This document shows, one piece after another, positions 882-51,848 of a stretch of 64,000 nt of DNA. The position numbers and the translations under genes are program-made. The notes below the pieces were generated by a model that had not been told where the DNA came from, searched no databases, and was given only the letters and a program-made list of their open reading frames with translations. The stretch comes from an uncultured Paracoccaceae bacterium (lineage in GTDB: Bacteria; Pseudomonadota; Alphaproteobacteria; Rhodobacterales; Rhodobacteraceae): contig CANNFA010000006.1 in assembly GCA_947503765.1 (NCBI GenBank), forward strand, positions 1 through 64,000, written 5' to 3'. The first letter of the stretch is position 1; every line of letters starts with the position of its first letter.

Positions 882-1072
882 CGCGTCCGTTCCCTTTCTC
901 GCCCGCTCGCCGTTCTGATAGCGCCGCCGCGACAAAAGCGCCACCGATGCGGAATTGGGGGCCGGAAACAGTATGGATATCCGCAATTGAACCGAAACCC
1001 GTCGCCATGCGACATATACGTGATAAACTTGCGGGCATACGCGCCAAATCATGTCCCTCGGGAGGGGAAACC

Positions 1073-2356
1073 ATGTTGAGAGTCAAACTGATCGCCCTCG
1101 CCGCTGCCGCGGCGCTGCTGCTTGTCCCGGTACCGCGTGCCAGTGCCGATTCGGGCGACGCCATCCTCGGTGCCATCGTCGGCGGCGTGATCACAGGCAT
1201 CGCCATCAACGAGGCGAACAAGAACAAGCCGCCCAAGCGCCGGGTCGTGGTCCGCCCCGCGCCCGAAAGCCCGCAGCGCAAGGCCAACCGGCTGACCCAG
1301 ACCGCGCTCAACTATTTCAGCTTCAATGCCGGCTATGCGGACGGGCTGTTCGGCCCGCAGACCGCGACGGGGGTGCGCGCCTACCAGGGGTTCCTCGACT
1401 TTCCGCAGACCGGCAAGCTGGCGGCGGTTGAGCATGACATCCTGATGGGTGCCTACAACCGCGGCCAGGCGGGCGATTACGCGACCGTCACGCTGGTCAA
1501 TTCCAGCCCGCTGGGTCCGCGTGCCCTGCTGGTCGCGCAGCGCGATGCGATGCTGGGCCGTGTCGCCTCGAACCCCGGCACGACCGTTCCCGTCACCTCG
1601 ACCAGCGACGGCGGCCCGACCATCGCGGAAAACGACACCGGCACCCTGACGGGGCTGCCGCTGATCCCGGTGCCGACGGGCAAGGGCAACCTCGCCGATT
1701 TCTGCGGCACCGACGCGGTGACCGGCCCGCGGGTGACGCTGGCCGCGATGGGCGAGCCGGAGCCGGCGCTGAACCAGGCGTTCTGTGCCGCGCGGGCCGA
1801 GGCGATCGACACCGCCGCCACCCTCGCCGCCGCCGTCGAGGGCGTCAGCATGGCCGGCATCGAGGCGCAATGCGACCAGCTTGGCCCGGTGATGAAGCCC
1901 TACGTGGCGAACCTGCCCGGCATGCCGCGTGCCGGCGTGATCGACGAGGTGCGCGATTTCGTCGATGACAGCGGCGCGGATGCGGCGCAGCTGGCCTCGA
2001 CCGCGCGGATCTGCCTTGGCACCGGCTATCGCACCGGCGACTTGGATGCCGCGATCGGCTCCGGCCTGCTGCTGGTGGCGCTCGGCCAGCCGGCCTATGG
2101 CGAGCTGATGGGCCATCACCTGCACCACGGCTTCGGCGTCGCCGCGAACGAGAACCGGGCGCTGGACTGGCTGGTCTGGACGACGGACGAGCTGCGGGCC
2201 GGGGCGATGCCGGTCTTCGGCAGCGGCGACAGCGGCCGCGCCGACCTGGTGGACGAGGCCGTGTACCGGCTGAATGGCGGCGCCGCACCGGCGCCGGGTC
2301 CGTCCAAGAACGCCGCCTCCAAGGGGCGTCTGCCCACGGCCGGCACCGCCAACTGA
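1073..2356 (+). CDS. Secreted peptidoglycan-binding domain protein
   Basis: The 427-residue protein starts with a clear signal peptide ([18 protein letters not shown], cleavage likely after ASA near residue 24). It then has a short glycine-rich segment ([15 protein letters not shown]) that could insert in a membrane or act as a glycine-zipper. Residues about 70-115 ([20 protein letters not shown] and on) look like a PG_binding_1 repeat. The rest has cysteines and no recognised enzyme domain. A role at the cell wall is inferred from the domain alone. The start at 1073 is set by GGAGGGG just upstream. The reading frame is open further 5', but homology and the signal peptide argue against a longer form. 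A strong terminator follows at 2377. Confidence 0.75.
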
Positions 2357-2376
2357 GCGGGCCGCGACTGCGCGCG

Positions 2377-2410
2377 AAACCGGGCTGCACCTGCGGCCCG
2401 GTTTTCTTTT
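2377..2410 (+). terminator. Rho-independent terminator
   Basis: A 9-bp perfect stem, AAACCGGGC (2377-2385) with GCCCGGTTT (2396-2404), is followed by TTTTCTTTT. It ends transcription of the peptidoglycan-binding protein gene and insulates the tRNA gene that follows. Confidence 0.85.
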
Positions 2411-2490
2411 GCGCTTTCTTCGGACGCGGTGAAAATCGGGCTTCACATCGCCGGGGCGCTCGGGTACACCCCGCGCACCGATTCAAGAGT

Positions 2491-2577
2491 GCGGTCGTGG
2501 CGGAATTGGTAGACGCGCAGCGTTGAGGTCGCTGTGGGGTAACACCCGTGGAAGTTCGAGTCTTCTCGACCGCACCA
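2491..2577 (+). tRNA. tRNA-Leu (anticodon GAG)
   Basis: The 87-base gene folds as a class II tRNA with a long variable arm. The acceptor stem is GCGGTCG pairing with CGACCGC (2567-2573). The anticodon stem CAGCG/CGCTG encloses the loop TTGAGGT, giving anticodon GAG at 2525-2527, which reads CUC and CUU. The T-arm contains GTTCGAG. The discriminator A and the CCA end (2575-2577) are encoded in the DNA. There is no adjacent integrase or att-like duplication. Confidence 0.96.
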
Positions 2578-2672
2578 ACTCTTCTCCCTTGCTTTCAGAC
2601 GATCGGCGGCTAATGCCGTCAGCGGCGCGGCGTCAGCCATGGCGCGCAGCGGCGTGGAAACTGCACCGGATT

Positions 2673-2699
2673 TTAACGGTTCCGTTAACCCCGCGTTAA
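2673..2699. promoter_or_regulatory. CtrA-like box upstream of the polysaccharide transferase
   Basis: The sequence TTAACCCCGCGTTAA (2685-2699) fits the alphaproteobacterial CtrA site TTAA-N7-TTAA exactly. It overlaps a second dyad, TTAACGG (2673-2679) and CCGTTAA (2682-2688). The two sites lie about 60-90 bp upstream of the start codon at 2761. Binding by CtrA is inferred from the pattern only. Confidence 0.5.
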
Positions 2700-2760
2700 G
2701 CCTGTTCTCGCTACACAAGACCCCGGACTGGCCTTTTTCCAGCGATTTCGGGGGGATGCG

Positions 2761-3429
2761 ATGGCCGACATATCTGTTCCGGCCGGCCGCGCGGCGCGGC
2801 GCCTTTGGCCGGCGGGGCCGGCGGCGAAACCGGCGCGGCGCGCTTTCCACCGCAGCGCCGCAAAGCGCGGCTTCGACATCGCCGTCTGTCTTGCGCTGCT
2901 GCCGATGTTGGCCCTGGCCGCGCTGATCGTGGCGCTGCTCAACCCGGCGGTAAACCCCGGCCCGGTTTTCTTCGTGCAGGCGCGGATGGGGCGCGGCTGC
3001 GTGCCGTTCGCCGCGGTCAAGTTCCGTACCATGCGCCCCGGAAACGGCGCGCGCCGCCTGCCCGAAGGCCCGCTGGAGGTGGCGCGGATAACCCGGCTTG
3101 GCCGGGCGATGCGGCGCGCGCGGCTGGACGAGCTGCCGCAGATCCTGAACGTGCTGGCCGGCCAGATGAGCCTGATCGGCCCGCGGCCCGATTGTCTTGA
3201 CCATGCGCGGCACTTCCTGCGCACGGTGCCCGGCTACCGCGCGCGCCATGCCGTGCGGCCGGGGATCAGCGGGCTGGCGCAGACCGAGATCGGCTATGTC
3301 GCCGGCTCGCACGCCACGCGGCGCAAGGTGCTGGCCGATCTCTACTACATCCGCCACTCGTCGCTGCGGCTGGAGGCCTGGCTGATCTGGCGTACATTGT
3401 CGGTGGTGGCGCGGCGGCAGGGGGCGTGA
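2761..3429 (+). CDS. Undecaprenyl-phosphate sugar phosphotransferase (initiating enzyme for polysaccharide synthesis)
   Basis: This is a small monotopic phosphoglycosyl transferase of the bacterial sugar transferase family (WcaJ/PssY/PglC type). It moves a sugar-1-phosphate from a nucleotide sugar to undecaprenyl phosphate at the inner membrane to start an exopolysaccharide, capsule or O-antigen unit. In its 222 residues, KRGFDIAVCLALLPMLA (about 35-51) begins the membrane-embedded re-entrant helix, KFRTM lies near residue 87, and RLDELPQ and SLIGPRP carry the catalytic Asp-Glu and the conserved Arg-Pro. The enzyme lacks the N-terminal four-helix domain of long forms. It stands alone after tRNA-Leu, behind a CtrA-like box, and is 2-7 kb from the kps genes on the other strand, which suggests a shared surface-polysaccharide theme. 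The sugar specificity cannot be told. Confidence 0.88.
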   Translation: MADISVPAGRAARRLWPAGPAAKPARRAFHRSAAKRGFDIAVCLALLPMLALAALIVALLNPAVNPGPVFFVQARMGRGCVPFAAVKFRTMRPGNGARRLPEGPLEVARITRLGRAMRRARLDELPQILNVLAGQMSLIGPRPDCLDHARHFLRTVPGYRARHAVRPGISGLAQTEIGYVAGSHATRRKVLADLYYIRHSSLRLEAWLIWRTLSVVARRQGA

Positions 3430-3436
3430 CGCGCGC

Positions 3437-4063
3437 TCAGGCGTCCCCGTCGCGCAGGACGATGTCGGCGGGGCGGCTGCCGGAACGCACCTTTCGGACG
3501 TTCGGCAGATCGTTGCTTTCGAGTTTGCGGGCGCAGGTTTCCGGGTCGAGGTGCTGCCATCGCGCGGCGAGCCGCCGGGTCAGCACATCCATCGGCACGT
3601 CGAGATAGATCGTCGTGTCCAGCAGCGGCGCGAGATCCGTCCAGGGCGGTTCGTCCAGCAGCAGGTAATTGCCCTCGGTCAGCAGGTGGCGGACGGTTTG
3701 CGGGATCATCCGTGCCCCGGCGCGGGCGATCTCGATCTCGCGGTCGAAGACCGGCACCGCGATCTCCGGCTCTGCATTGGCGCGCAGGCGGGCCAGCATG
3801 TGGCCATAGCCCGCCACGTCGAAGGTATGCGGCGCGCCCTTGCGTGACAGCCAGCCGCGCGCCTTCAGCAGGATGTCGTCGAAATGGTAGCCGTCCATCG
3901 GCAGGATCGCGGCGCTGCCGGGGTCGGCGGCGTTCAGATGGTCGGCCAGCGTCTCGGCAATGGTCGATTTGCCCGCGCCGGGCGGCCCGGCGATGGCGGT
4001 GACATGGCGGCCGGTGCGGCCGCGCCGCTCAAGCTGGGCGGCAAGGGAAGCAATGGCATTCAT
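3437..4063 (-). CDS. P-loop nucleoside/nucleotide kinase family protein
   Basis: The protein has a Walker A motif GPPGAGKST near residues 26-34 and then PMDGYHFDD, the acceptor-site motif of the uridine kinase/phosphoribulokinase/pantothenate kinase (PRK/URK) superfamily. TEGNYLLLDEPPW and VRKV follow further on. This pattern matches the PanK/FrcK-like kinases annotated as nucleoside/nucleotide kinase family proteins. The true substrate is unknown and may be a sugar, a nucleoside or pantothenate. The start is uncertain. ATG at 4063 (208 residues, MNAIASLAAQ) fits the family, and 4081 or 4135 are in frame upstream, but none has a good ribosome-binding site. It is convergent with the sugar transferase gene, with only 7 bases between the stops. 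Confidence 0.72.
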   Translation of the reverse strand: MNAIASLAAQLERRGRTGRHVTAIAGPPGAGKSTIAETLADHLNAADPGSAAILPMDGYHFDDILLKARGWLSRKGAPHTFDVAGYGHMLARLRANAEPEIAVPVFDREIEIARAGARMIPQTVRHLLTEGNYLLLDEPPWTDLAPLLDTTIYLDVPMDVLTRRLAARWQHLDPETCARKLESNDLPNVRKVRSGSRPADIVLRDGDA

Positions 4064-4219: not shown

Positions 4220-5152
4220 ATGTGGTCCCCGGCAGAGCGTTACCCCGACCCCGCGATCGAGATTCTGGACGACCGGTTCGCCGGTCTGGTGCTGTGGCAC
4301 GCGGCGGTCGAACGGCTTGCGACCGGTTTTCGCTGGTCCGAGGGGCCGGTCTGGTTCGGCGATCACCGCTGCCTGATCTGGTCGGACATCCCGAACGACC
4401 GGCTGATGCGCTGGGACGAGGAAACCGGCGGGGTGCAGGAATTCCGCCGCGGCGGCCATGCCAACGGCAATACCCGCGACCGGCAGGGGCGGCTGATCTC
4501 CTGCCAGCACGGCGCCCGCGCGGTGGTGCGCACCGAGCTTGACGGCACGCTGACCGTTCTGGCGGACAGCTTCGACGGCAGGCGGCTCAATTCGCCCAAT
4601 GACGTGGTGGCGCATTCCGACGGGTCGATCTGGTTCACCGACCCGACCTTCGGCATCCTGTCGCATTACGAGGGCGGCATCGCCACCCCGGAGCTGCCCA
4701 CAAACGTCTACCGGATCGACCCGGACAGCGGCGAGGTCGCGCCGGTGATCGAGGGGATCGACCAGCCCAACGGGCTGTGCTTTTCACCCGACGAATCGCG
4801 GCTTTACCTGGTGCAATCGGGCGCGCCCAAATGCATCCACGTCTTCGAGATGGCCGCGGACGGGCGCGGCGTGACCGAGGGGCGCGTATTCGTCGAGGCG
4901 GGCGAGGCCGGCACGCCGGACGGGTTCCGCTGCGACGCGCGGGGCAATCTCTGGGCCGGCTGGGGGCTGGGCGAGGGGTTGGACGGGGTGCGCGTCTTCG
5001 CCCCCGACGGCACCGCGATCGGCCATGTCCACCTGCCGGAACGCTGCGCCAACCTTTGCTTCGGCGGGCGCCACCGCACACGGCTGTTCATGGCGGCCAG
5101 CCGGTCGCTCTATGCGCTGCATGTCGCGGTGCAGGGGGTTCCCTACGTCTGA
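4220..5152 (+). CDS. SMP-30/gluconolactonase family protein
   Basis: This 310-residue six-bladed beta-propeller belongs to the SMP-30/gluconolaconase/LRE family, which hydrolyses sugar lactones with a bound divalent metal. The expected metal ligands are present: Glu in SEGPVWF (about residue 41), Asn in LNSPNDVV (about 122), Asn in QPNGLCFSPDES and Asp in GTPDGFRCDARGNLWAG. No signal peptide is seen, so it is cytoplasmic. A ribosome-binding site AGGAAAGG lies 7 bases before the ATG. It stands alone between divergent and convergent neighbours, so its sugar pathway cannot be inferred from context. Members of this family have varied substrates. Confidence 0.85.
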   Translation: MWSPAERYPDPAIEILDDRFAGLVLWHAAVERLATGFRWSEGPVWFGDHRCLIWSDIPNDRLMRWDEETGGVQEFRRGGHANGNTRDRQGRLISCQHGARAVVRTELDGTLTVLADSFDGRRLNSPNDVVAHSDGSIWFTDPTFGILSHYEGGIATPELPTNVYRIDPDSGEVAPVIEGIDQPNGLCFSPDESRLYLVQSGAPKCIHVFEMAADGRGVTEGRVFVEAGEAGTPDGFRCDARGNLWAGWGLGEGLDGVRVFAPDGTAIGHVHLPERCANLCFGGRHRTRLFMAASRSLYALHVAVQGVPYV

Positions 5153-5180
5153 TGGCATCGCTGCCGCGCCCGCGTGCGCC

Positions 5181-7241
5181 CTACCGCCAGAGAAAGGCGT
5201 AGCTGGCCAGCAGGCCCTGAAGTTTCGCCAGCGCGCGGTTGGCCGGGCCGGGGCGGGGCAGGGTGCCGGCGGCAAGGCGTTCGGCGACCACCTCGGCCGG
5301 GCAGGGGCTGTTCGTGACCGGGTCGTGATAGCGCGGATAGGCGATCAGGACCGCATGGGCCAGCGCGGCGACCGAGGGCCGCGCCTGCCGCCGCGCCGGG
5401 ACCGCGCCCAGGTCGCGGGTCAGGCCCCATCCCGCATAGAACGGCGTGCCCAGGCAGGTGACGGGCACCCCGCGCAGCAGCGCCTCGAAACCCAGCAGCG
5501 AAGTCATCGTCCACACCTCCGCGACCTCGCCGATCAGCGCCGCGGGATCGGCGCCGCTTGCCACCAGATCGGCGGCGGCCGCGTCGCCGGGCGGCAGCGC
5601 GCCGGTGCGCAGCCCCGCCTCGACATCGGGGTGCGGCTTGTAGATCAGCACGGCGTCGGGGTTGGCGGCGCGCGCGGTGCGCAGAAGGGCGGCATTGGTG
5701 CCCACCGCCCCGGTTCCGGTGCGGATCGAGGCGTCATCCTCGACCTGGCCGGGCACCAGGATGCGGCGGCCCGGTGGCAGGTCCGGCAGCGGCACGGCGG
5801 CAAGGTTGTATTTCGACAGCCGCGCCCGCGTCAGCAACACCACCAGCCGCTCGGCGCGGGCAAGGCGCGCGGGCGGCAGCGCCGCGGCCTCGGCGATCAG
5901 CGCCTCCAGCCGGCTGGGGCGCGTCGGGTCGTAGTAGATGCCCAGATCGTCCGTCACCAGCGACAGCGGCGGCACCAGCGCCGCGCCCAGCCCGCGCGAG
6001 CGCAGGAACCCGTCCTCGACCCGCACGAGGCCGCCCGCGCTGGCCGCCGCGCGGGTCAGCGCGGGCGTTTCGCGGCCGGCCCAGACCATCAGGCGCCGCC
6101 CCTCGCGCTGCGCGGTGCGGGCGGCGCGCGCCGGATCGTCCTGGAACCGCAGCCGCCGTTCGGCGCGGAAGACCCGTTGCAGCGGCCGGCGCTTCCACAG
6201 GCGCATCCCGGCGGCGACATAGCCGTGCCGGTCGGCGCGCCAGGCGTTCGCCTGCGCCTCCAGCGCGGCAATGGCGTCTTCCAGCGGGCAAAGCCGGTCG
6301 CGGTGCGGGTCGTACCATGCCGGGTAAAGGATCATCGCGGCGGCGAATAGCTGCGCGCGGGTCAGGCGGCGGGTGCGGCGGGCGACCGGGTTCTGATCCT
6401 GCGTCAGGCCCCAACCGGCATAGAACGGCTGGCCGAAGACGCGGGGGCGGTGGCCGGCAAAGATCGCCTCGAACCCGAGGCCGGAAGACACGGTATAGAC
6501 GGCCGTCGCCCCCTCCAGCAGCCGCCAGGGGCTGACCGGGTCCGTCAGCAGCGTGATGTGCGGCGCGCGATCTTCCGGCCCGAAATGCCCGGCGCGGTGA
6601 CCCGAAAGCGTTTCGGGATGCGCCTTGATGACGATCCGCGCGCCGGGGTTTTCCTCCTGCGCGAAGACCAGCATCTCGCGGAAGGTGCCGGGGCCGGCCG
6701 CACCGTGGGCGATGGACGCATCGCCGCGCGTCTGGTCGATGACCAGCACATAGGGCGCGTCCGGCACCGGCGCATCGGGATCGAAGGCGTTGTATTTCGA
6801 CAGGTGCGCCGCGCGGATCCAGTCCGACGCGGCGCGGGCGCGGTCCAGAAGCGCGGTGTCGTCAAGCGGATGGGTCGCCAGCAGCGTCTCCAGATCGCTT
6901 GGCGCGCTGCTGTCGAAATGAACCCCCGTCCGGTCGAGTTGAAGCCCCAGCGGCGGGCTGCCCGCGCGCCCCGGATGGACCGAGCGCAAAAGCGCATCCT
7001 CGACGCGCAACACCTGGCTGCCGGTGCGCTTTGCCATTGTCTCGCCGCGCGGGGCGGTCGGGCTTTTGCCCCAGGTGCCGACCCAGTCGTCCGGGCCAGG
7101 CCGGCCAAGCCGGATGTCCCAGCCGGCAAGCGCCAGGATGCGGCGCAGCCGGCGCCCCGTCAGGAACCCGCCGTTATAGACGTAAAGACGCCGCCGGGGG
7201 ATGTTCCCGGCGGCGTCCATTGAAGTGTCGGCGCGGCACAT
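5181..7241 (-). CDS. kpsC: Capsular polysaccharide linker synthesis protein, KpsC family
   Basis: KpsC is a cytoplasmic membrane-associated Kdo transferase that builds the beta-Kdo linker between the lipid anchor and the capsule in ABC-dependent capsule systems. The roughly 686-residue protein shows the characteristic internal duplication. RVEDALLRS with a following QLDRTGVHFD, near residues 80-110, is repeated as RVEDGFLRSRGLG with VTDDLGIYYD in the second half. SKYN, HP and GFEALL/GFEAIF with PFYAGWGLT also occur in both halves. Both repeats look intact. The start is ambiguous: ATG at 7241 lies 10 bases after the kpsD-like stop, and ATG at 7220 is also possible. It is last in the kpsS-kpsD-kpsC operon, and it is convergent with the SMP-30 gene. 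Confidence 0.9.
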   Translation of the reverse strand: MCRADTSMDAAGNIPRRRLYVYNGGFLTGRRLRRILALAGWDIRLGRPGPDDWVGTWGKSPTAPRGETMAKRTGSQVLRVEDALLRSVHPGRAGSPPLGLQLDRTGVHFDSSAPSDLETLLATHPLDDTALLDRARAASDWIRAAHLSKYNAFDPDAPVPDAPYVLVIDQTRGDASIAHGAAGPGTFREMLVFAQEENPGARIVIKAHPETLSGHRAGHFGPEDRAPHITLLTDPVSPWRLLEGATAVYTVSSGLGFEAIFAGHRPRVFGQPFYAGWGLTQDQNPVARRTRRLTRAQLFAAAMILYPAWYDPHRDRLCPLEDAIAALEAQANAWRADRHGYVAAGMRLWKRRPLQRVFRAERRLRFQDDPARAARTAQREGRRLMVWAGRETPALTRAAASAGGLVRVEDGFLRSRGLGAALVPPLSLVTDDLGIYYDPTRPSRLEALIAEAAALPPARLARAERLVVLLTRARLSKYNLAAVPLPDLPPGRRILVPGQVEDDASIRTGTGAVGTNAALLRTARAANPDAVLIYKPHPDVEAGLRTGALPPGDAAAADLVASGADPAALIGEVAEVWTMTSLLGFEALLRGVPVTCLGTPFYAGWGLTRDLGAVPARRQARPSVAALAHAVLIAYPRYHDPVTNSPCPAEVVAERLAAGTLPRPGPANRALAKLQGLLASYAFLWR

Positions 7242-7251
7242 GGCCGGCGCG

Positions 7252-8400
7252 TCAGTCGCTGCCCGAGAAGGTATCGACCGCGCCGGCGATGCCGCCGACC
7301 GCGCTGACCGATCCGGTAAGCGCCGACAGAACCTTGCTCCACTGGGCGAAGGGCGCCTCGGTGACATAGACGGTGTCGCCGTCGCGGATCACGAAGTCGC
7401 GCGCCATGAACAGCCCGTTGGGTTCGGTCAGGTCCAGCACGTAGACCATGCGCTGGGTGCCCAGCAGGTCGGTCCGGCCCAGCACCTGGCTGGCGATCTC
7501 CACCGGCTCGTTGCGCAGGACGAACACGCCGGTCGGATCGGCCGAGGTGGTCGACAAGCCGCCGACCTGGGCGATCGCCTCGATCGCGGAGATGGTCTGG
7601 GTGTCGAACCGCACCCGGCTTTGCGAGCCGGTCGCGCCCAGCGCGGTGAACGAGCGGGTATCGGCCTCGACCAGGATGCGGTCGTTGCCGCGCAGCGCGA
7701 TGTCGGCGCGCGGATCCTCGAACAGGTCGCTGAACCAGACCTCGCCGGTCTCGCTGCCGCGGATCACCCGGACGCGGGCGATTTCCGGCTCGACGGTGAC
7801 ACCGCCGGCACGGGCCAGCATCGCCGACAGGGTGCGCGTCGGCCGCTCGATGGCGAACACGCCCTGGCTGGTGACGGCGCCGGTGACCGAGACCGTCGCG
7901 CCGTCGCCCGCGACGCGGCGCACCATGACCTGCGGGTCGGGCGTCTGGTCGGCCAGCTTTTCGGTGATCAGCCGGCGAATCGCCTCGGGGGTGTTGCCGG
8001 CGGCGCGGATGCGCCCGGCATAGGGCACATAGACAAAGCCGGCGCCGTCCACCTGGACCTCTTCGAGCATGGTGGCATTGGTGCCGGTCGCGGCCAGCAG
8101 ACCGTCATCGACGTTTTCGTAGATCGTCAGGCCCAGCGTGTCGCCGGGGCGGATCGTGTCCGACCCGACCTGGCCGGCATTCTGGAACGCGGTCGAGAAG
8201 CCCAGGGCGGGCACCACGGCGGTGGCGCGCGTCACCCGGTCGTTGACCGACACGATGAAGGCATCGCCCTGCCGTTGAACCGATCCGGCATAGATTTCAC
8301 GTTTGGTGGGGCCGGCGCGCGGCAACCCGCAGCTTGCGGCGAAACCGACAAGCGCCAGGAGCGCGGCCATGCGCGCGATGCGCGATGACTGGATTTTCAC
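7252..8400 (-). CDS. Outer-membrane polysaccharide export lipoprotein, Wza/KpsD (OPX) family
   Basis: OPX proteins form the periplasmic and outer-membrane channel through which capsule or exopolysaccharide leaves the cell. The 382-residue protein has a lipoprotein signal peptide with lipobox AASC and Cys24. A polysaccharide export (Poly_export) domain begins around residue 80 (IRPGDTLGLTIYEN), followed by SLBB-type segments (VSVTGAVTSQGVFAI and the ISAIEAIAQVGGL region). The start is GTG at 8398-8400 with GAGGAG about 9 bases upstream. It lies between the kpsS-like gene (97-base gap) and the kpsC-like gene (10-base gap), so all three are probably one operon. The inner-membrane ABC parts (kpsM, kpsT, kpsE) are not in this window. 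Confidence 0.88.
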   Translation of the reverse strand: MKIQSSRIARMAALLALVGFAASCGLPRAGPTKREIYAGSVQRQGDAFIVSVNDRVTRATAVVPALGFSTAFQNAGQVGSDTIRPGDTLGLTIYENVDDGLLAATGTNATMLEEVQVDGAGFVYVPYAGRIRAAGNTPEAIRRLITEKLADQTPDPQVMVRRVAGDGATVSVTGAVTSQGVFAIERPTRTLSAMLARAGGVTVEPEIARVRVIRGSETGEVWFSDLFEDPRADIALRGNDRILVEADTRSFTALGATGSQSRVRFDTQTISAIEAIAQVGGLSTTSADPTGVFVLRNEPVEIASQVLGRTDLLGTQRMVYVLDLTEPNGLFMARDFVIRDGDTVYVTEAPFAQWSKVLSALTGSVSAVGGIAGAVDTFSGSD

Positions 8401-46118: not shown

Positions 46119-47951
46119 ATGGCCCGTGCTCCTCTCTTGCAACTTTCCGGCATCACGCTGAATTTCGGCGGTGACCCGCTTCTGGACGGGCTGGACCTGA
46201 CCGTGCAGCCGGGCGAGCGCATCGCGCTGGTCGGGCGCAACGGGTCGGGAAAATCGACGCTGATGAAGGTGATGGCCGGGCTGGTGGAGCCGGACAGCGG
46301 CGCGCGCGTGCTGTCGCCGGGCGATTCGGTCGGCTACATGGAACAGCATCCCGACATGTCGGGTCATGCGACGCTGGGCGACTTTGCCGCCAGCGCGCTG
46401 CCACCGGACGAGGCATATCGCGTGGAGATGGCCGCCGAGGGGTTGCAGTTCGATCCGGCCACCACGGTCGGCGCCGCCTCGGGCGGCGAGCGGCGGCGCG
46501 CGGCGCTGGCCAAGCTGATGGCCGAGGCGCCCGACCTGATGCTGCTGGACGAGCCGACCAACCATCTGGACATCGCGGCGGTGCTGTGGCTGGAAGAGCA
46601 GCTTCGCGCCGCCCGCGCGGCCTATGTCCTGATCTCGCACGACCGGGCCTTCCTCAGGGCACTGACCCGCGCGACGCTGTGGCTGGACCGCGGCACGCTG
46701 CGCCGGCAGGAACGGGGGTTCGAGGATTTCGAGGCCTGGCGCGACAAGGTCTGGCAGGACGAGGACATGCAGCGCCACAAGCTGGACCGCCGCATCCGGG
46801 CAGAGGCGCGCTGGGCCGTCGAGGGGATCAGCGCGCGGCGCAAGCGCAACCAGGGGCGGCTGCGCGGCCTTCAGGCGATGCGCGCCGAGCGTGCGGCGAT
46901 GATCCGCCGGCAGGGCGCGGCCGACATGGCGCTGGATGCCGGGCCGCAATCGGGCAAGCGCGTGATCGAGGCGCGCGGCATCTCCAAGGCGTATGACGGG
47001 CGCACGATCCTGCGCGATTTCAGCCTTCGCATCCTGCGCGGCGACCGGGTGGCGCTGGTCGGCCCGAACGGGACCGGCAAGACCACGCTGCTGAAGATGC
47101 TGACCGGCGAGGTCGAGCCGGACAGCGGCAGCGTCGTGCACGGCACCAACCTCGAGATCGCGGTGTTCGACCAGAACCGCGACGGGATCGACCCCGGCGC
47201 GACGCTGTGGGACAGCCTGACGCAGGATCCCGGGCTGGGCGTTTCCGGCCAGTCCGATCAGGTGATGGTGCGCGGGGTGCCGCGGCATGTCATCGGCTAT
47301 CTCAAGGATTTCCTGTTCTCCGAGGCGCAGGCGCGCGCGCCCGTCCGCTCGCTGTCGGGCGGGGAAAAGGCGCGGCTGCTGCTGGCGCGGATCATGGCGC
47401 GGCAATCGAACCTGCTGGTGCTGGACGAGCCGACGAACGATCTGGACATCGAGACGCTGGATCTGCTTCAGGAACTGATCGGGGAATATGACGGCACCGT
47501 GCTGCTGGTCAGTCACGACCGCGATTTCCTTGACCGGGTGGCGACCACCACGATCGCCATGGAAGGCGGCGGCGCGGCGACGGTCTATGCCGGCGGCTGG
47601 TCCGACTACCGCGCCCAGCGCGGCGAGACCGCGCCGCCCCCCGCCGCCGCGAAGCCGCGCAAGCCCGCCCGCGCGGCCCCCGAAAACGCGCCGCCCGCCC
47701 GCCAGAAGCCGCCGCGCCCCGGCCTGAGCTTTACCGAGCGCCACCGGCTGGAGGCGTTGCCGGAGGAAATCGCACGGCTGGAGGCGGAAATCGAAAAACT
47801 TGCCGGGTATCTGTCGGATCCGGACCTATATGCGAAAGAGCCGATGAAGTTCGACAAGGCCACGCAGGCGCTGGCGGAACGGCAGGGCGCGCTGGCACGG
47901 GCCGAGGATGACTGGCTGGCGCTGGCGGAAAAGGCCGAGGCAGAGGGCTGA
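46119..47951 (+). CDS. ABC-F family ATPase, Uup-like
   Basis: ABC-F proteins bind ribosomes and help translation, or with Uup affect DNA transposon excision. They have no membrane domain. The 610-residue protein has two ABC domains, the first with Walker [10 protein letters not shown], signature ASGGERRR and [10 protein letters not shown], and the second with [22 protein letters not shown] and [12 protein letters not shown] linker of charged helix (about 185-275) lies between them. A basic proline- and alanine-rich stretch and coiled coil at the C-terminus (about 500-610) match the Uup C-terminal domain. The exact role is not known. Confidence 0.9.
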
Positions 47952-47994: not shown

Positions 47995-49152
47995 ATGACA
48001 CGCACCGCTTTGCACTACTTTCGCTGGGCCTTTGCGGTCACCGCGCTGGGGCTCGTGCTGTCGTTCTGGCTGGGCTGGGCGGCGACGGACCGGCTGAGCG
48101 GGGCGCTGACCTTTCTGATGATCGGCACGGTGCTGGCGATCCTCGAAATCTCGCTGAGCTTCGACAACGCCATCGTCAACGCCAACAAGCTGAAATACAT
48201 GACCCCGAAATGGCAGCGGCGGTTCCTGACCTGGGGCATCGTGATCGCCGTGTTCGGGATGCGCATCGTGTTCCCGCTGGCGGTGGTGGTGGTCGCCGCC
48301 AAGATCGGGCCATGGGCGGCGATCAAGCTGGCGGCGACGCAGCCGGCGGAATACGCGGTGATCATGGAAGAGGCGCATCTGGGCATCGCGGCCTTCGGCG
48401 GCGCGTTCCTGATGATGGTCGCGCTGACCTATTTCATCGACGAGGGCAAGGACGTGGACTGGATCGGCACGCTGGAGCGCAACCTGCGCCGGCTGGCCCC
48501 GATCCGGGGGATGCAGATTTCCGTCGTGCTGGCGGTACTGCTGGGCTTTGCGCTGCTGCTGGAGGGCGAGGAGGTCGCGACCTTCCTGTTCGCCGGGCTG
48601 TTCGGGCTGGTCGTCTTCACCTGTGTCGAGATCGCGGGCCAGGTGCTGGACCGCAAGGAGCGTGCGGCAAGCACGGCCGCGACCGGCGGGCTGGGTGCGT
48701 TCCTGTACCTTGAGGTTCTGGACGCCTCGTTCAGCTTCGACGGGGTGATCGGCGCCTTCGCGCTGACCCAGAACCTGTTCCTGATCGCCATCGGGCTGGG
48801 CGTGGGCGCGATGTATGTCCGCTCGATGACGATCATGCTGGTCGAGCGGCAGACGCTGGCGCAGTTCCGCTATCTCGAACACGGGGCGTTCTATTCGATC
48901 CTGGCGCTGTCGCTGATCATGTTCGCGCAATCGAAACTGCACATCCCCGAGGCGCTGACCGGGCTGATCGGCGCGGGCCTGATCGCGCTGGCGCTGGTGT
49001 CGTCGCTACGCTGGAACCGGCGCAATCACGGCGCGGCCCTGCCCGCGGGCGGCGGTGCGGCGGATGCGCCCGCCCAGCCTCCGGCCCAATCCCCGGCCCA
49101 AACCCCGGCGCAGTCTTCCGCTCAGTCCGCCGTGCGGCAGAACATGTCGTAG
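47995..49152 (+). CDS. DUF475 integral membrane protein (TerC superfamily)
   Basis: DUF475 proteins belong with TerC-like polytopic membrane proteins, sometimes implicated in metal or tellurium stress. The 385-residue protein has about nine predicted helices and the conserved SLSFDNAIVNANKLK, EAHLGIAAFGGAFLMMVALTYF and YLEVLDASFSFDGVIGAF motifs with buried acidic residues that could bind a metal ion. Its C-terminus is a cytoplasmic or periplasmic tail with alternating PAQ units (residues about 350-380). It overlaps the convergent ArsR gene by 31 bases. Confidence 0.85.
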   Translation: MTRTALHYFRWAFAVTALGLVLSFWLGWAATDRLSGALTFLMIGTVLAILEISLSFDNAIVNANKLKYMTPKWQRRFLTWGIVIAVFGMRIVFPLAVVVVAAKIGPWAAIKLAATQPAEYAVIMEEAHLGIAAFGGAFLMMVALTYFIDEGKDVDWIGTLERNLRRLAPIRGMQISVVLAVLLGFALLLEGEEVATFLFAGLFGLVVFTCVEIAGQVLDRKERAASTAATGGLGAFLYLEVLDASFSFDGVIGAFALTQNLFLIAIGLGVGAMYVRSMTIMLVERQTLAQFRYLEHGAFYSILALSLIMFAQSKLHIPEALTGLIGAGLIALALVSSLRWNRRNHGAALPAGGGAADAPAQPPAQSPAQTPAQSSAQSAVRQNMS

Positions 49153-49526
49153 ACCACTTCCATGATCCGGGTGGAACGGTCGTCGGCCAGGCTGTAATAG
49201 ATCGTCTTGCCCTCGCGGCGCGGCGTCACCAGCCCTTCGAGCCGCAGCCGCGACAATTGCTGCGACACCGCCGCCTGGCGGGCCGACAGCAGGTCTTCAA
49301 GCTCTGTCACCGATTTCTCGCCGCTGGCCAGATGGCACAGGATCATCAGCCGGCCCTCGTGGCTGATCGCCTTGAGAAACTCCGAGGCGCGCTGCGCGTT
49401 CTGCGTCATCCGGTCCATGTGCTCGGGGCTGACATCGCCGGAAAAGACGGGCAGGTCGGTGTCGTCATCCGCGCTTTGCGCGGTCTCGTTCGCTCGGTCC
49501 AAGAGGTCGCCCCGTGGCATGGTCAT
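49122..49526 (-). CDS. ArsR family repressor, SqrR/BigR-like persulfide sensor
   Basis: The 134-residue winged-helix protein matches the SqrR/BigR branch: RLMILCHLASGEKSVTELE, RQAAVSQQLSRLRLEGLV, RREGKTIYYSL and EVVYDMFC near the end. Cysteines C64 and C130 are 66 residues apart, the same spacing as the C41/C107 pair that forms a polysulfide bridge in Rhodobacter SqrR. The DNA-binding helix is at about 82-97. It likely represses its targets until reactive sulfur species arise, so candidate targets are its own promoter and the 58-kb operon. The 3' end overlaps the DUF475 gene by 31 bases. ATG at 49526, alternative 49520. It lacks the metal-binding motif of arsenic-sensing ArsR. Confidence 0.82.
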   Translation of the reverse strand: MTMPRGDLLDRANETAQSADDDTDLPVFSGDVSPEHMDRMTQNAQRASEFLKAISHEGRLMILCHLASGEKSVTELEDLLSARQAAVSQQLSRLRLEGLVTPRREGKTIYYSLADDRSTRIMEVVYDMFCRTAD

Positions 49527-49610: not shown

Positions 49611-49656
49611 CATGATATGAGCCTTCGCGCCATGTATTCAAGTAACATGATATGAG
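49611..49656 (-). promoter_or_regulatory. Promoter and repeat operators of the SqrR-like gene
   Basis: CATGATATGAG occurs twice on the plus strand (49611-49621 and 49646-49656). Read on the minus strand, a promoter is visible between them: TTGAAT (49636-49641) and TATCAT (49612-49617) with an 18-base spacer. One repeat overlaps the -10 and the other lies just upstream of the -35, an arrangement typical of autoregulation. The rest of the 368-base gap to ugpB holds one palindrome (49780) and nothing else recognisable. Confidence 0.55.
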
Positions 49657-49894: not shown

Positions 49895-51205
49895 ATGAAG
49901 TTCGGATTTACAACCATGGCGGCCGCCTCTGTGCTGCTGGCCGCGCAGGCGGCCTCGGCGCAGACCGAGGTCGAATTCTGGCATGCCTTCACCGGCCGCC
50001 TTGGCGAGCTGGTGGCAGAGCAGGTCGAGACCTTCAATGCCATGCAGGACGACTACAAGGTCATCGCCACCCACAAGGGCAACTATTCGGAAACGTTGAA
50101 CGCGGGCATCGCCGCCTTCCGCGCCGGCGAGCAGCCCGACATCCTGATGGTGTTCGAGGTCGGCACGGCCACGATGATGGCCGCCGAGGGCGCGGTGGAG
50201 CCGGTGTACAAGGTGCTCAACGATGCCGGCGTCGACTGGAACCCGGACAACTTCATCAGCTCGGTCAACGGCTATTACACCAATACGGACGGCGACATGC
50301 TGTCGCTGCCGTTCAACGCCTCGACGCCCGTTCTGTGGGTGAACCGCGACGCGCTGGAAGCGGCGGGGATCGACCCGGACGTGGACCTGACGACCTGGCA
50401 GAAGGTCGATGCCGTCCTGGACGAGCTGAAAGAGGCCGGCGCCGAATGCCCGCTGACCACGGCATGGCAAAGCTGGATTCACCTGGAAAACCTGTCGGCC
50501 TATCACGACGTGCCTTTCGCCACGAAGGATAACGGCTTTGCCGGACTGGACACCGAGCTGGCCTTCAACGGCCCGGTGCAGATCCAGCATATCGCGCAGA
50601 TGGGCGAATGGGCCGACGAAGGCAAGTTCATCTATGCCGGCCGCCGCAACGAGGGCGGGGCCAATTTCCGCGGCGGCGAATGCGCGCTGTTCACCGAAAG
50701 CTCGGCCGGCTATGCGGGCATCAAGGACGAGGCCGAATTCGACTTCGACGTGCGCCCGCTGCCCTATTGGGAAGGCGTCGAGGGCGCGCCGCAGAACACC
50801 ATCATCGGCGGCGCGTCGCTGTGGGTGATGGCCGGCCAGTCGGAAGAGGAATACAAGGGCGTTGCCGAGTATCTCAACTTCCTGTCCTCGCCCGAAATCC
50901 AGGCGAAATGGCACCAGGATACCGGCTATCTGCCGATCACCGCCGAGGCCGGGGAACTGACTCGCGAGCAGGGCTTCTACGAGGAAAACCCCGGCACCGA
51001 CATCGCCGTGACGCAGATGACCGCGAATGAGCCGACGGCCAATTCCAAGGGGATCCGGCTGGGCAATTTCGACCAGATCCGCGGCATCATCGACGAAGAG
51101 CTGGAAGCCGTGTGGGCCGGCGACAAGACCGCCGAAGAGGCCCTGAACAGCGCGGTCGAGCGCGGCAACGGGTTGCTGCGCCGCTTCGAGCAGGCCAACC
51201 GCTGA
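49895..51205 (+). CDS. ugpB: sn-glycerol-3-phosphate ABC transporter, substrate-binding protein
   Basis: UgpB captures glycerol-3-phosphate and its diesters in the periplasm. The 436-residue protein has a signal peptide (MKFGFTTMAAASVLLAAQAA, cleaved after SAQ). The fold is that of family-1 solute-binding proteins, with VEFWHAFTG, ATMMAAEGAVEPV, LPFNASTPVLWVNRDAL, GGECALFTESSAGYAG and GGASLWVM. ATG at 49895 with CAGGGAG upstream. It starts the ugp operon, but a toxin-antitoxin pair on the other strand separates it from ugpA. Confidence 0.92.
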   Translation: MKFGFTTMAAASVLLAAQAASAQTEVEFWHAFTGRLGELVAEQVETFNAMQDDYKVIATHKGNYSETLNAGIAAFRAGEQPDILMVFEVGTATMMAAEGAVEPVYKVLNDAGVDWNPDNFISSVNGYYTNTDGDMLSLPFNASTPVLWVNRDALEAAGIDPDVDLTTWQKVDAVLDELKEAGAECPLTTAWQSWIHLENLSAYHDVPFATKDNGFAGLDTELAFNGPVQIQHIAQMGEWADEGKFIYAGRRNEGGANFRGGECALFTESSAGYAGIKDEAEFDFDVRPLPYWEGVEGAPQNTIIGGASLWVMAGQSEEEYKGVAEYLNFLSSPEIQAKWHQDTGYLPITAEAGELTREQGFYEENPGTDIAVTQMTANEPTANSKGIRLGNFDQIRGIIDEELEAVWAGDKTAEEALNSAVERGNGLLRRFEQANR

Positions 51206-51226: not shown

Positions 51227-51583
51227 TCAATCCGCGCCGAAGCCTTCCCGACCCAGCCGCCGCATCACGCGGGCAACATGGTCCTGGCCGGTGAAATAGA
51301 CGGCGATGATCCGGACCGGATGCTCGGGCCTAGGCGATATGAACCAGAAGATCGCACGATCGAGGGTGACATGACGAATACCGTTGCCGATCTCGGGATG
51401 CAGGGTTCCGATCTGCGGCGCCTTGGCGATCCGGTCGGCCGCATGCCGAATGGCGCGAACGCGGCCCGCTGCGAGGTCGCGCGCCTCTCGCGTGGGTCGA
51501 CCGAAAGCCAGGTGCGTGTCCAGAAGATGACGGAATATGCGCTGCAGATCGCGATTGGCCGCGGGGGAAAACTCAACCCTCAA
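51227..51583 (-). CDS. parE: ParE/RelE superfamily toxin
   Basis: The 118-residue product has the ParE/RelE fold: FSPAANRDLQRIFRHLLD, then RIAKAPQIGTLHPEI and RAIFWFISPRPEHPVRIIAVYFTGQD at the C-terminus. Neighbouring ParE homologues are gyrase poisons, while RelE cleaves mRNA. The substrate cannot be read from the sequence. It overlaps the antitoxin gene by 11 bases and lies antisense between ugpB and ugpA. Confidence 0.85.
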   Translation of the reverse strand: MRVEFSPAANRDLQRIFRHLLDTHLAFGRPTREARDLAAGRVRAIRHAADRIAKAPQIGTLHPEIGNGIRHVTLDRAIFWFISPRPEHPVRIIAVYFTGQDHVARVMRRLGREGFGAD

Positions 51584-51848
51584 GGCCGAGCTTCCTGCTT
51601 TCCTCCGCCAGCATTTCCTCCATCATCTCGTCGAACCGCTCTGCCGGAACGAACGAGCCGTTCGCACGCCGCGTCAGCATCTCGCGGAATGCCGCCATCT
51701 CGGCATCATCCGCCACGTCCTGCCGGCGCAACACCTCCAACCCCTGCTGGATCACGGCGCTCACGCTCGAATAGCGGCCCTCGGCGACCAGTCGCCGCGC
51801 GAATTCCGCCTGCTGGTCGGTCAGGGATATCGAGGTTTTCACGGTCAT
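51573..51848 (-). CDS. parD: ParD/CopG family antitoxin
   Basis: The 91-residue antitoxin has a ribbon-helix-helix N-terminus (MTVKTSISLTDQQAEFARRL, residues 1-45). A C-terminal toxin-binding segment follows (DAEMAAFREMLTRRANGSFV and on). AAAGGAG precedes the ATG at 51848. It is transcribed before the toxin, the normal order for autoregulated TA operons. A near-perfect palindrome lies 22 bases upstream of the start and is the likely operator. Confidence 0.85.
   Translation of the reverse strand: MTVKTSISLTDQQAEFARRLVAEGRYSSVSAVIQQGLEVLRRQDVADDAEMAAFREMLTRRANGSFVPAERFDEMMEEMLAEESRKLGLEG

Follow-up and report, generated by a model that had tools for sequence, protein, structure and literature searches.

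An ArsR-family regulator of the SoxR/SqrR/BigR type and a predicted operator that it shares with an unlinked sqr gene in an uncultured Paracoccaceae bacterium

Introduction

Repressors of the ArsR/SmtB family that sense sulfane sulfur include SqrR of Rhodobacter capsulatus, SoxR of alphaproteobacterial sox clusters and BigR. Studies of SqrR and SoxR describe repression by occlusion and release of the repressor through a polysulfide bridge (PMC10451225, PMC9995734). The deduced recognition site of R. capsulatus SqrR, as given in PMC9774250, is ATTC-N8-GAAT. The R. capsulatus genes carry the locus tags rcc01453 (sqrR) and rcc00785 (sqr) (PMC10044876), and these distant tags suggest that adjacency of the two genes is not a feature of the model system either. 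Here we analyzed an ArsR-family gene, hereafter arsR, in a 64-kb stretch of DNA (the window) of an uncultured Paracoccaceae bacterium. The window lies on contig C6 of a 3.98-Mb genome, referred to as G000.

Results

The ORF at 49122..49526 on the minus strand is intact and encodes a 134-aa ArsR/SmtB-family repressor of the SoxR/SqrR/BigR sulfane-sulfur-sensing type, whose sole cysteines, C64 and C130, are separated by 66 residues and constitute the putative dithiol. In a phmmer search of the PDB, the SqrR chains 13ct_A and 6o8k_A were the top matches (131.7 and 131.6 bits, E 1.6e-37 and 1.7e-37). Residues 38-131 aligned with these chains without a gap, and 64 of 94 core residues (68%) were identical to R. 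capsulatus SqrR. C64 and C130 fell in register with the SqrR cysteine pair, whose chain numbering is the published C41/C107 plus one, and the flanking residues matched as well (RLMILC in the window protein and RLMIMC in SqrR; MFC and QFC). The initial annotation had pointed to a cysteine pair 66 residues apart with flanks like those of SqrR, and the ungapped alignment confirms this; the comparison with SqrR and BigR that it called for places both cysteines at the SqrR positions. HlyU (67 bits) and BigR (63 bits) followed in the PDB search, and metal sensors scored below 50 bits. The BigR and HlyU chains shown aligned in the same cysteine register as SqrR.

The 66-residue spacing does not by itself distinguish SqrR. 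It is more than chance, but it was kept in all 140 rows of an alignment of relatives, mostly sox-linked SoxR proteins, a set that includes the window gene itself and several genes fetched twice. Since the spacing is a consequence of gap-free homology, it marks the sulfane-sulfur-sensor subfamily and not SqrR in particular. A third cysteine, 31-32 residues upstream on the N-terminal side, is found in SqrR and many sox-linked relatives and is absent from the window protein. The NCBIfam BigR equivalog NF040642 was missed by the window protein (93.1 bits vs a cut-off of 155). The gene is single copy in G000, where the only other match was weak (E 0.008).

The window protein exceeds the cut-offs of PF01022 (HTH_5; 40 bits vs 22) and of the general HTH_metalloreg model NF033788 (83.4 bits vs 55), as would also be expected of a metal- or arsenic-sensing ArsR protein whose cysteines match those of SqrR by accident. 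We consider such a sensor extremely unlikely, because every metal sensor ranks below SqrR, HlyU and BigR in the PDB search, and no arsenic gene was seen among the neighbors read (43.5-55 kb). The metal sites of known kinds are of the CxC type or rich in His/Asp. By reading of the sequence, the sole candidate ligands are His36, His56 and His65 together with the two cysteines 66 residues apart, so that these three histidines and two cysteines make up neither kind of site. The check by which the initial annotation could have been refuted had a mixed outcome. The cysteines occupy the SqrR positions and metal sensors rank lower in the PDB search, but the trees, which contained no metal sensor, place the window protein with the SoxR type and do not make it a one-to-one ortholog of R. 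capsulatus SqrR. Judged from its sequence, 49122-49526 encodes a known kind of sulfide/persulfide-sensing repressor, and homology, the two-cysteine dyad and the operator evidence given below speak for the earlier reading of a persulfide sensor.

Downstream, arsR is convergent with a terC/DUF475 gene (47995..49152, plus strand), and the 3' ends of the two genes overlap by 31 bp (49122-49152). An ABC-F gene (abcf; 46119..47951, plus strand), named by reading, lies beyond terC and is found beside this arsR locus in each of the five genomes sampled from the genus, while terC is placed between abcf and arsR, within the genus, only in the window and in G199. On the other side, ugpB, encoding a glycerol-3-phosphate ABC transporter binding protein (49895..51205, plus strand), is divergent from arsR, and this pairing is not conserved within the genus. 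An antitoxin gene of the ParD kind (PF03693, 31 bits vs a cut-off of 21) and a ParE-like partner, the latter named by reading and matched by no Pfam family at 1e-5, lie between ugpB and ugpA at 51227-51848 on the minus strand; this pair on the opposite strand splits an otherwise standard ugpBAEC operon. No sqr gene adjoins arsR in the window.

The region upstream of arsR contains a predicted operator, TATCATGTTACTTGAATA (49635..49652, minus strand), a TAT-N12-ATA dyad whose right half is GAAT as in the SqrR site. It precedes the arsR start codon by 109 bp and ugpB by 243 bp. The predicted arsR promoter (49612..49641, minus strand), as read from the sequence, would consist of a -35-like TTGAAT (49641-49636), an 18-bp spacer and a -10-like TATCAT (49617-49612), and the predicted operator covers the -35-like element. 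The corresponding arsR promoters of the congeners G199, G200 and G198 read CAT-N9-TGAATG, and that of the window reads TAT-N9-TGAATA. The looser form YAT-N10-GAATR was present in all four promoters of the window-type arsR locus (0.09 in shuffles). As a separate observation, CATGATATGAG occurs twice upstream of arsR, 35 bp apart (49611-49621 and 49646-49656), one copy overlapping the predicted -10 and the other the predicted operator.

The position of the predicted operator within the arsR-ugpB intergenic region raises the question of whether arsR controls the divergent ugpBAEC operon, which would be a new link between persulfide signaling and glycerol-3-phosphate uptake. A distant relative, L125 (G010), carries ABC-transporter genes (27-51% identity to ugpA/ugpE/ugpC) and terC (68%) near its arsR, all no more than a few kb away. 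There, arsR is at 4995-5366 (minus strand), terC at 6444-7463 (plus strand) and the transporter genes at 1044-3485 (plus strand), an order unlike that of the window, and this proximity may be due to chance or to an old association. Control of ugp is nevertheless very improbable: the predicted site lies far nearer to arsR and overlaps its promoter, and the congeners have other neighbors at this place, namely a family-5 binding protein (G199), a cupin protein (G200) and a LysR regulator (G198). Moreover, none of the other 109 relatives' loci, of which 80 were named (mostly 10 kb per side) and 29 unnamed (1.5 kb per side), matched ugpB, ugpA, ugpE or terC, with several weak ugpC-like ATPases as the only matches.

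An sqr gene, which would encode a sulfide-oxidizing enzyme, was found elsewhere in G000, at 95305-96618 of contig C11 (G000:C11:95305-96618), followed by a DUF5368 gene and with a Tat-like signal read from its sequence. It was recognized among Pyr_redox_2 matches through NCBIfam and is called SQR because of its similarity to mitochondrial SQR chains in the PDB (238 bits, E 2.3e-69); it scored below the SQR_III_seleno cut-off (219 vs 525). This was the only SQR match in G000 at E <= 1e-30, and it lies on a different contig from the window, in agreement with the earlier remark that no sqr gene adjoins arsR. Orthologs at 72-75% occur in G199 and G200, and E <= 1e-150 matches to the protein were found in 37 of 198 genomes of the family, G000 included. 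Its promoter contains TAT-N9-TGAATA 23-40 bp before the ATG, where the dyad covers TAAGAT, which would fit a -10, downstream of the FNR-like TTGACGTGGGTCAA. The earlier suggestion that the regulon may differ from that of the model, as sqr is not adjacent, is not supported, since the sqr promoter carries the same dyad as arsR. Compared with the published SqrR site, both G000 sites have the right half GAAT in full (4 of 4 positions), and the left half agrees at two of four positions in arsR and at three of four in sqr.

YAT-N9-TGAATR had one match in the 64-kb window, the predicted operator. In the 129 kb of G000 that were scanned it had three, and two of these are the arsR and sqr sites. The exact TAT-N8-TTGAATA occurs twice in the 3.98 Mb of G000, before arsR and before sqr; as this pattern was picked by comparing the two sites, the informative part is the absence of a third occurrence. 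With up to two mismatches allowed, TATTCANNNNNCATGATATGA had the window site as its sole match. Twenty-one sites in G000 differ from TAT-N8-TTGAATA by one mismatch, most of them inside ORFs of at least 100 aa (mechanical ORFs, not gene calls). Two (L232, L234) lie shortly 5' of an ORF start, and no obvious sulfur gene was seen 3' of the one-mismatch sites, as judged from the printed N-termini. Read backwards, the pattern had 8 matches vs 23 forward, an excess that goes beyond the two exact sites.

Among relatives, YAT-N10-GAATR was detected in 14 of 32 sqr promoters of the family (shuffles 0.50, maximum 3, n=100) and was missing from the other 18, including that of the congener G199. It was also present, though more weakly, in 18 of 101 soxS-soxV intergenic regions, that of G152 included (shuffles 2.54, maximum 7). 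Occurring in some sox promoters as well, the dyad is a mark of the regulator lineage as a whole and not of the window locus in particular. It was absent from the promoters of the other paralog groups, that is, the clp-linked group (0/12) and L113-L118 (0/6), and from those of L119, L120, L122, L123, L125 and L126 (0/6). Of the relatives in the set that are not sox-linked, the six closest to R. capsulatus SqrR showed no dyad upstream.

A weight matrix was also learned from the 101 soxS-soxV intergenic regions, some of which are the same gene fetched twice. This matrix was a poor guide, with modest scores at both G000 sites: the window site ranked second in the 64 kb and reached a p of 4/300 in its own intergenic region, while the G000 sqr site had a p of 0.098 and sqr promoters were hardly enriched (4/32 at p <= 0.05). 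High matrix scores in a region, L178, where an integrase-like gene was named by reading, and upstream of a pair of PF04143 genes (L177) were discounted as evidence of targets. In many sqr promoters an FNR-like TTGATCTG..TCAA box was noticed upstream of the predicted repressor site (L176:9237-9250; L188-L216), and CAGATCA or its complement occurs in 10 of the 32 vs 0.4 expected. These FNR-like boxes together with the repressor site suggest that sqr could be under joint control by oxygen and sulfide.

The congeners carry a further operon with this kind of site. At SQR-fusion loci examined after the motif had been defined (L240-L243), the perfect dyad CATTC-N8-GAATG was present 36-57 bp before the first operon gene in all four congeners, and it contains the published deduced SqrR site. 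The first gene is a 70-aa membrane-protein-like ORF in three congeners and the PDO (persulfide dioxygenase) gene in G199. The order comprises genes for a PDO-like protein (PF00753, with ETHE1 as one of its relatives), a fusion of BLH and SQR (PF04273 and PF07992) and a permease of the SulP kind. These assignments rest on Pfam for the three G199 genes and the G198 fusion, and on similarity of the printed N-termini for the others. Besides the window-type copy, G198 has no further family member at E <= 1e-10, and the window-type regulator is thus the likely user of the PDO/SQR-operon site there. The SQR fusion was not found in G000, where the C11 gene is the one SQR match at E <= 1e-30.

Of 198 genomes sampled from the family, 171 had a match to the window protein at E <= 1e-8. 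Among the 80 best named loci out of 542 candidates, 69 were sox-linked, 10 lay beside clpP/clpX and one beside neither; a further 29 of 29 unnamed loci were sox-linked. At sox-linked loci the regulator gene stands between ORFs of ~130 aa and ~350 aa, opposite an ORF of ~246 aa, which matches the soxS-soxR-soxT arrangement described in PMC10451225; the names soxS, soxR and soxT were assigned to the family loci by reading. This arrangement is absent at the window locus.

The genus was sampled by five genomes, G000, G152, G198, G199 and G200, of which G198 has a contamination estimate of 10. The window-type locus has the order duf177-bamE-msrB-gnat-abcf-(terC)-arsR, where duf177, bamE, msrB and abcf are names given by reading, without a family search. 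G199 and G200 have two copies of the regulator each, one sox-linked and one at the window-type locus; G198 and G000 have the window-type copy only. In G152 the single copy is part of soxSRT, and the sox cluster directly adjoins this abcf flank. The SoxR of G200 is identical to that of locus L033. Beyond the genus, no abcf-arsR linkage of up to 5 kb was seen among the matches listed, their coordinates being compared by eye (G000 and G152 excepted). G152, G199 and G200 have true SoxB, at 87-100% identity to the G152 protein. No SoxB ortholog was found in G000 or G198, where matches reached 27-32% identity to the G152 query, and a second SoxB query against G000 gave a 28% match and a partial 36% match, no ortholog.

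Two trees were constructed, a larger one of 91 rows, made up of 4 PDB segments and 87 rows from the relatives' alignment of 140, and a smaller one of 53 rows. The larger tree omitted L064, L093, roughly half of the sox rows and genes present in duplicate; neither tree contained an arsenic or metal sensor. In the smaller tree the window protein grouped with the three other copies of its locus (support 90/92, not starred), and the sox-linked copies that G199 and G200 also have stood separately (100/98). In the larger tree six long-branched rows, L113-L118, joined this four-member group at 85/96. R. capsulatus SqrR paired with a sox-linked SoxR of G016 in both trees (98/93 in the larger, 95/85 in the smaller). 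For groups named after a first tree, an exclusive clade of the window locus and R. capsulatus SqrR was rejected (p-AU 0.027). A clade of the window locus and G152 SoxR was not rejected (p-AU 0.51), and the window and G199 copies as a pair had a p-AU of 0.49. The N-terminal pattern MPR..LLDR-like / LP.F.GD is common to the window protein, G152 and partly G199, and is not found in the sox-linked copies. By tree and synteny, the window protein is a SoxR/SqrR-type regulator and not a one-to-one ortholog of R. capsulatus SqrR. From its locus and its place in the tree, arsR probably descends from the SoxR lineage, stayed at the locus and outlived the sox genes, although the opposite order, with sox genes joining a solitary regulator, may also apply.

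Two other groups of relatives were noticed. One stands beside clpP/clpX in Ruegeria and relatives (L038, L042, L046, L047, L060, L061, L063, L065, L074, L082, L128, L129), and its promoters are those that lack the dyad (0/12). The other, L113-L118, is divergent, and L113-L116 have a further cysteine near the C-terminus; at the three loci read (L113, L115, L118), the regulator is accompanied by what we take to be a mandelate-racemase-like gene.

This history also allows that arsR is a leftover SoxR of a lost sox cluster, kept by drift or for autoregulation only and exerting no control over sqr. The predominance of sox-linked loci, the sox cluster and its soxS-soxR-soxT genes that G152 has at this abcf flank, the common N-terminal pattern, the clade with G152 SoxR that was not rejected, and the failure to find a SoxB ortholog in G000 are all in keeping with it. 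Yet G000 and G198, which alone among the five genomes lack true SoxB, have an intact ORF with both cysteines, and the dyad is kept upstream of arsR in four of four genomes and is also present before the G000 sqr, which makes an idle remnant unlikely.

Discussion

Our data point to arsR as a repressor of the SoxR/SqrR/BigR subfamily that responds to sulfane sulfur (persulfide/polysulfide) and likely controls itself and the unlinked sqr, in the manner of its well-characterized relative SqrR. The homology, the register of the cysteines, the presence of sqr, the absence of a SoxB ortholog and the shared dyad with its conservation form the computed basis of this proposal, and from them we infer DNA binding, a polysulfide bridge and the direction of control. 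In the proposed mechanism, the dimer with reduced dithiols would bind the dyad TAT-N12-ATA (in congeners CAT-N12-ATG, at best CATTC-N8-GAATG) and thereby occupy the -35 of its own promoter and probably the -10 of sqr, repressing both by occlusion as in the SqrR and SoxR studies. Sulfide would raise the level of persulfides, leading to a sulfur bridge between C64 and C130; the bridged repressor would then leave the DNA, and sqr and arsR would be expressed.

More tentatively, a SoxR without its sox genes might have been kept as a stand-alone repressor of sqr, with the two unlinked operators shifting together from CAT-N12-ATG to TAT-N12-ATA, a scenario that we regard as possible rather than probable. 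If true, it would be a natural re-assignment of a regulator with co-evolving unlinked operators inside one genus. The analysis as a whole shows how a shared operator can link a sensor of the SqrR/SoxR type to a likely target in the absence of adjacency. It also points to SoxR and SqrR as a single regulator lineage, the targets of which would change with the gain and loss of sox, PDO/SQR and sqr modules.

Among known systems, BigR (Xylella/Agrobacterium), YgaV (E. coli) and HlyU (Vibrio) share the ArsR fold and the conserved cysteine pair with the window protein, but similarity to them is much lower and the protein stays below the NCBIfam BigR cut-off; these were compared at the protein level. 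The resemblance to SoxR of alphaproteobacterial sox clusters (for example in Hyphomicrobium denitrificans, Paracoccus and Pseudaminobacter) extends to the subfamily and the dithiol, to the sox-linked positional counterpart in G152 and to the loose dyad found in part of the soxS-soxV regions. In contrast to these SoxR genes, arsR stands alone with its own promoter dyad in a genome in which no SoxB ortholog was found. The closest solved relative is SqrR of R. capsulatus (rcc01453; PDB 6o8k-6o8o, 13ct). The window protein differs from it in having no third N-terminal cysteine, in branching with roseobacter-type SoxR proteins, in the TAT-N12-ATA form of the G000 operators and in a predicted target SQR that is nearest in the PDB to mitochondrial SQR chains. 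It is like SqrR in its fold, in the position of the dithiol, in the 64 of 94 identical core residues and in the operator half GAAT, and also in its likely target sqr and in a sensor gene that lies apart from sqr.
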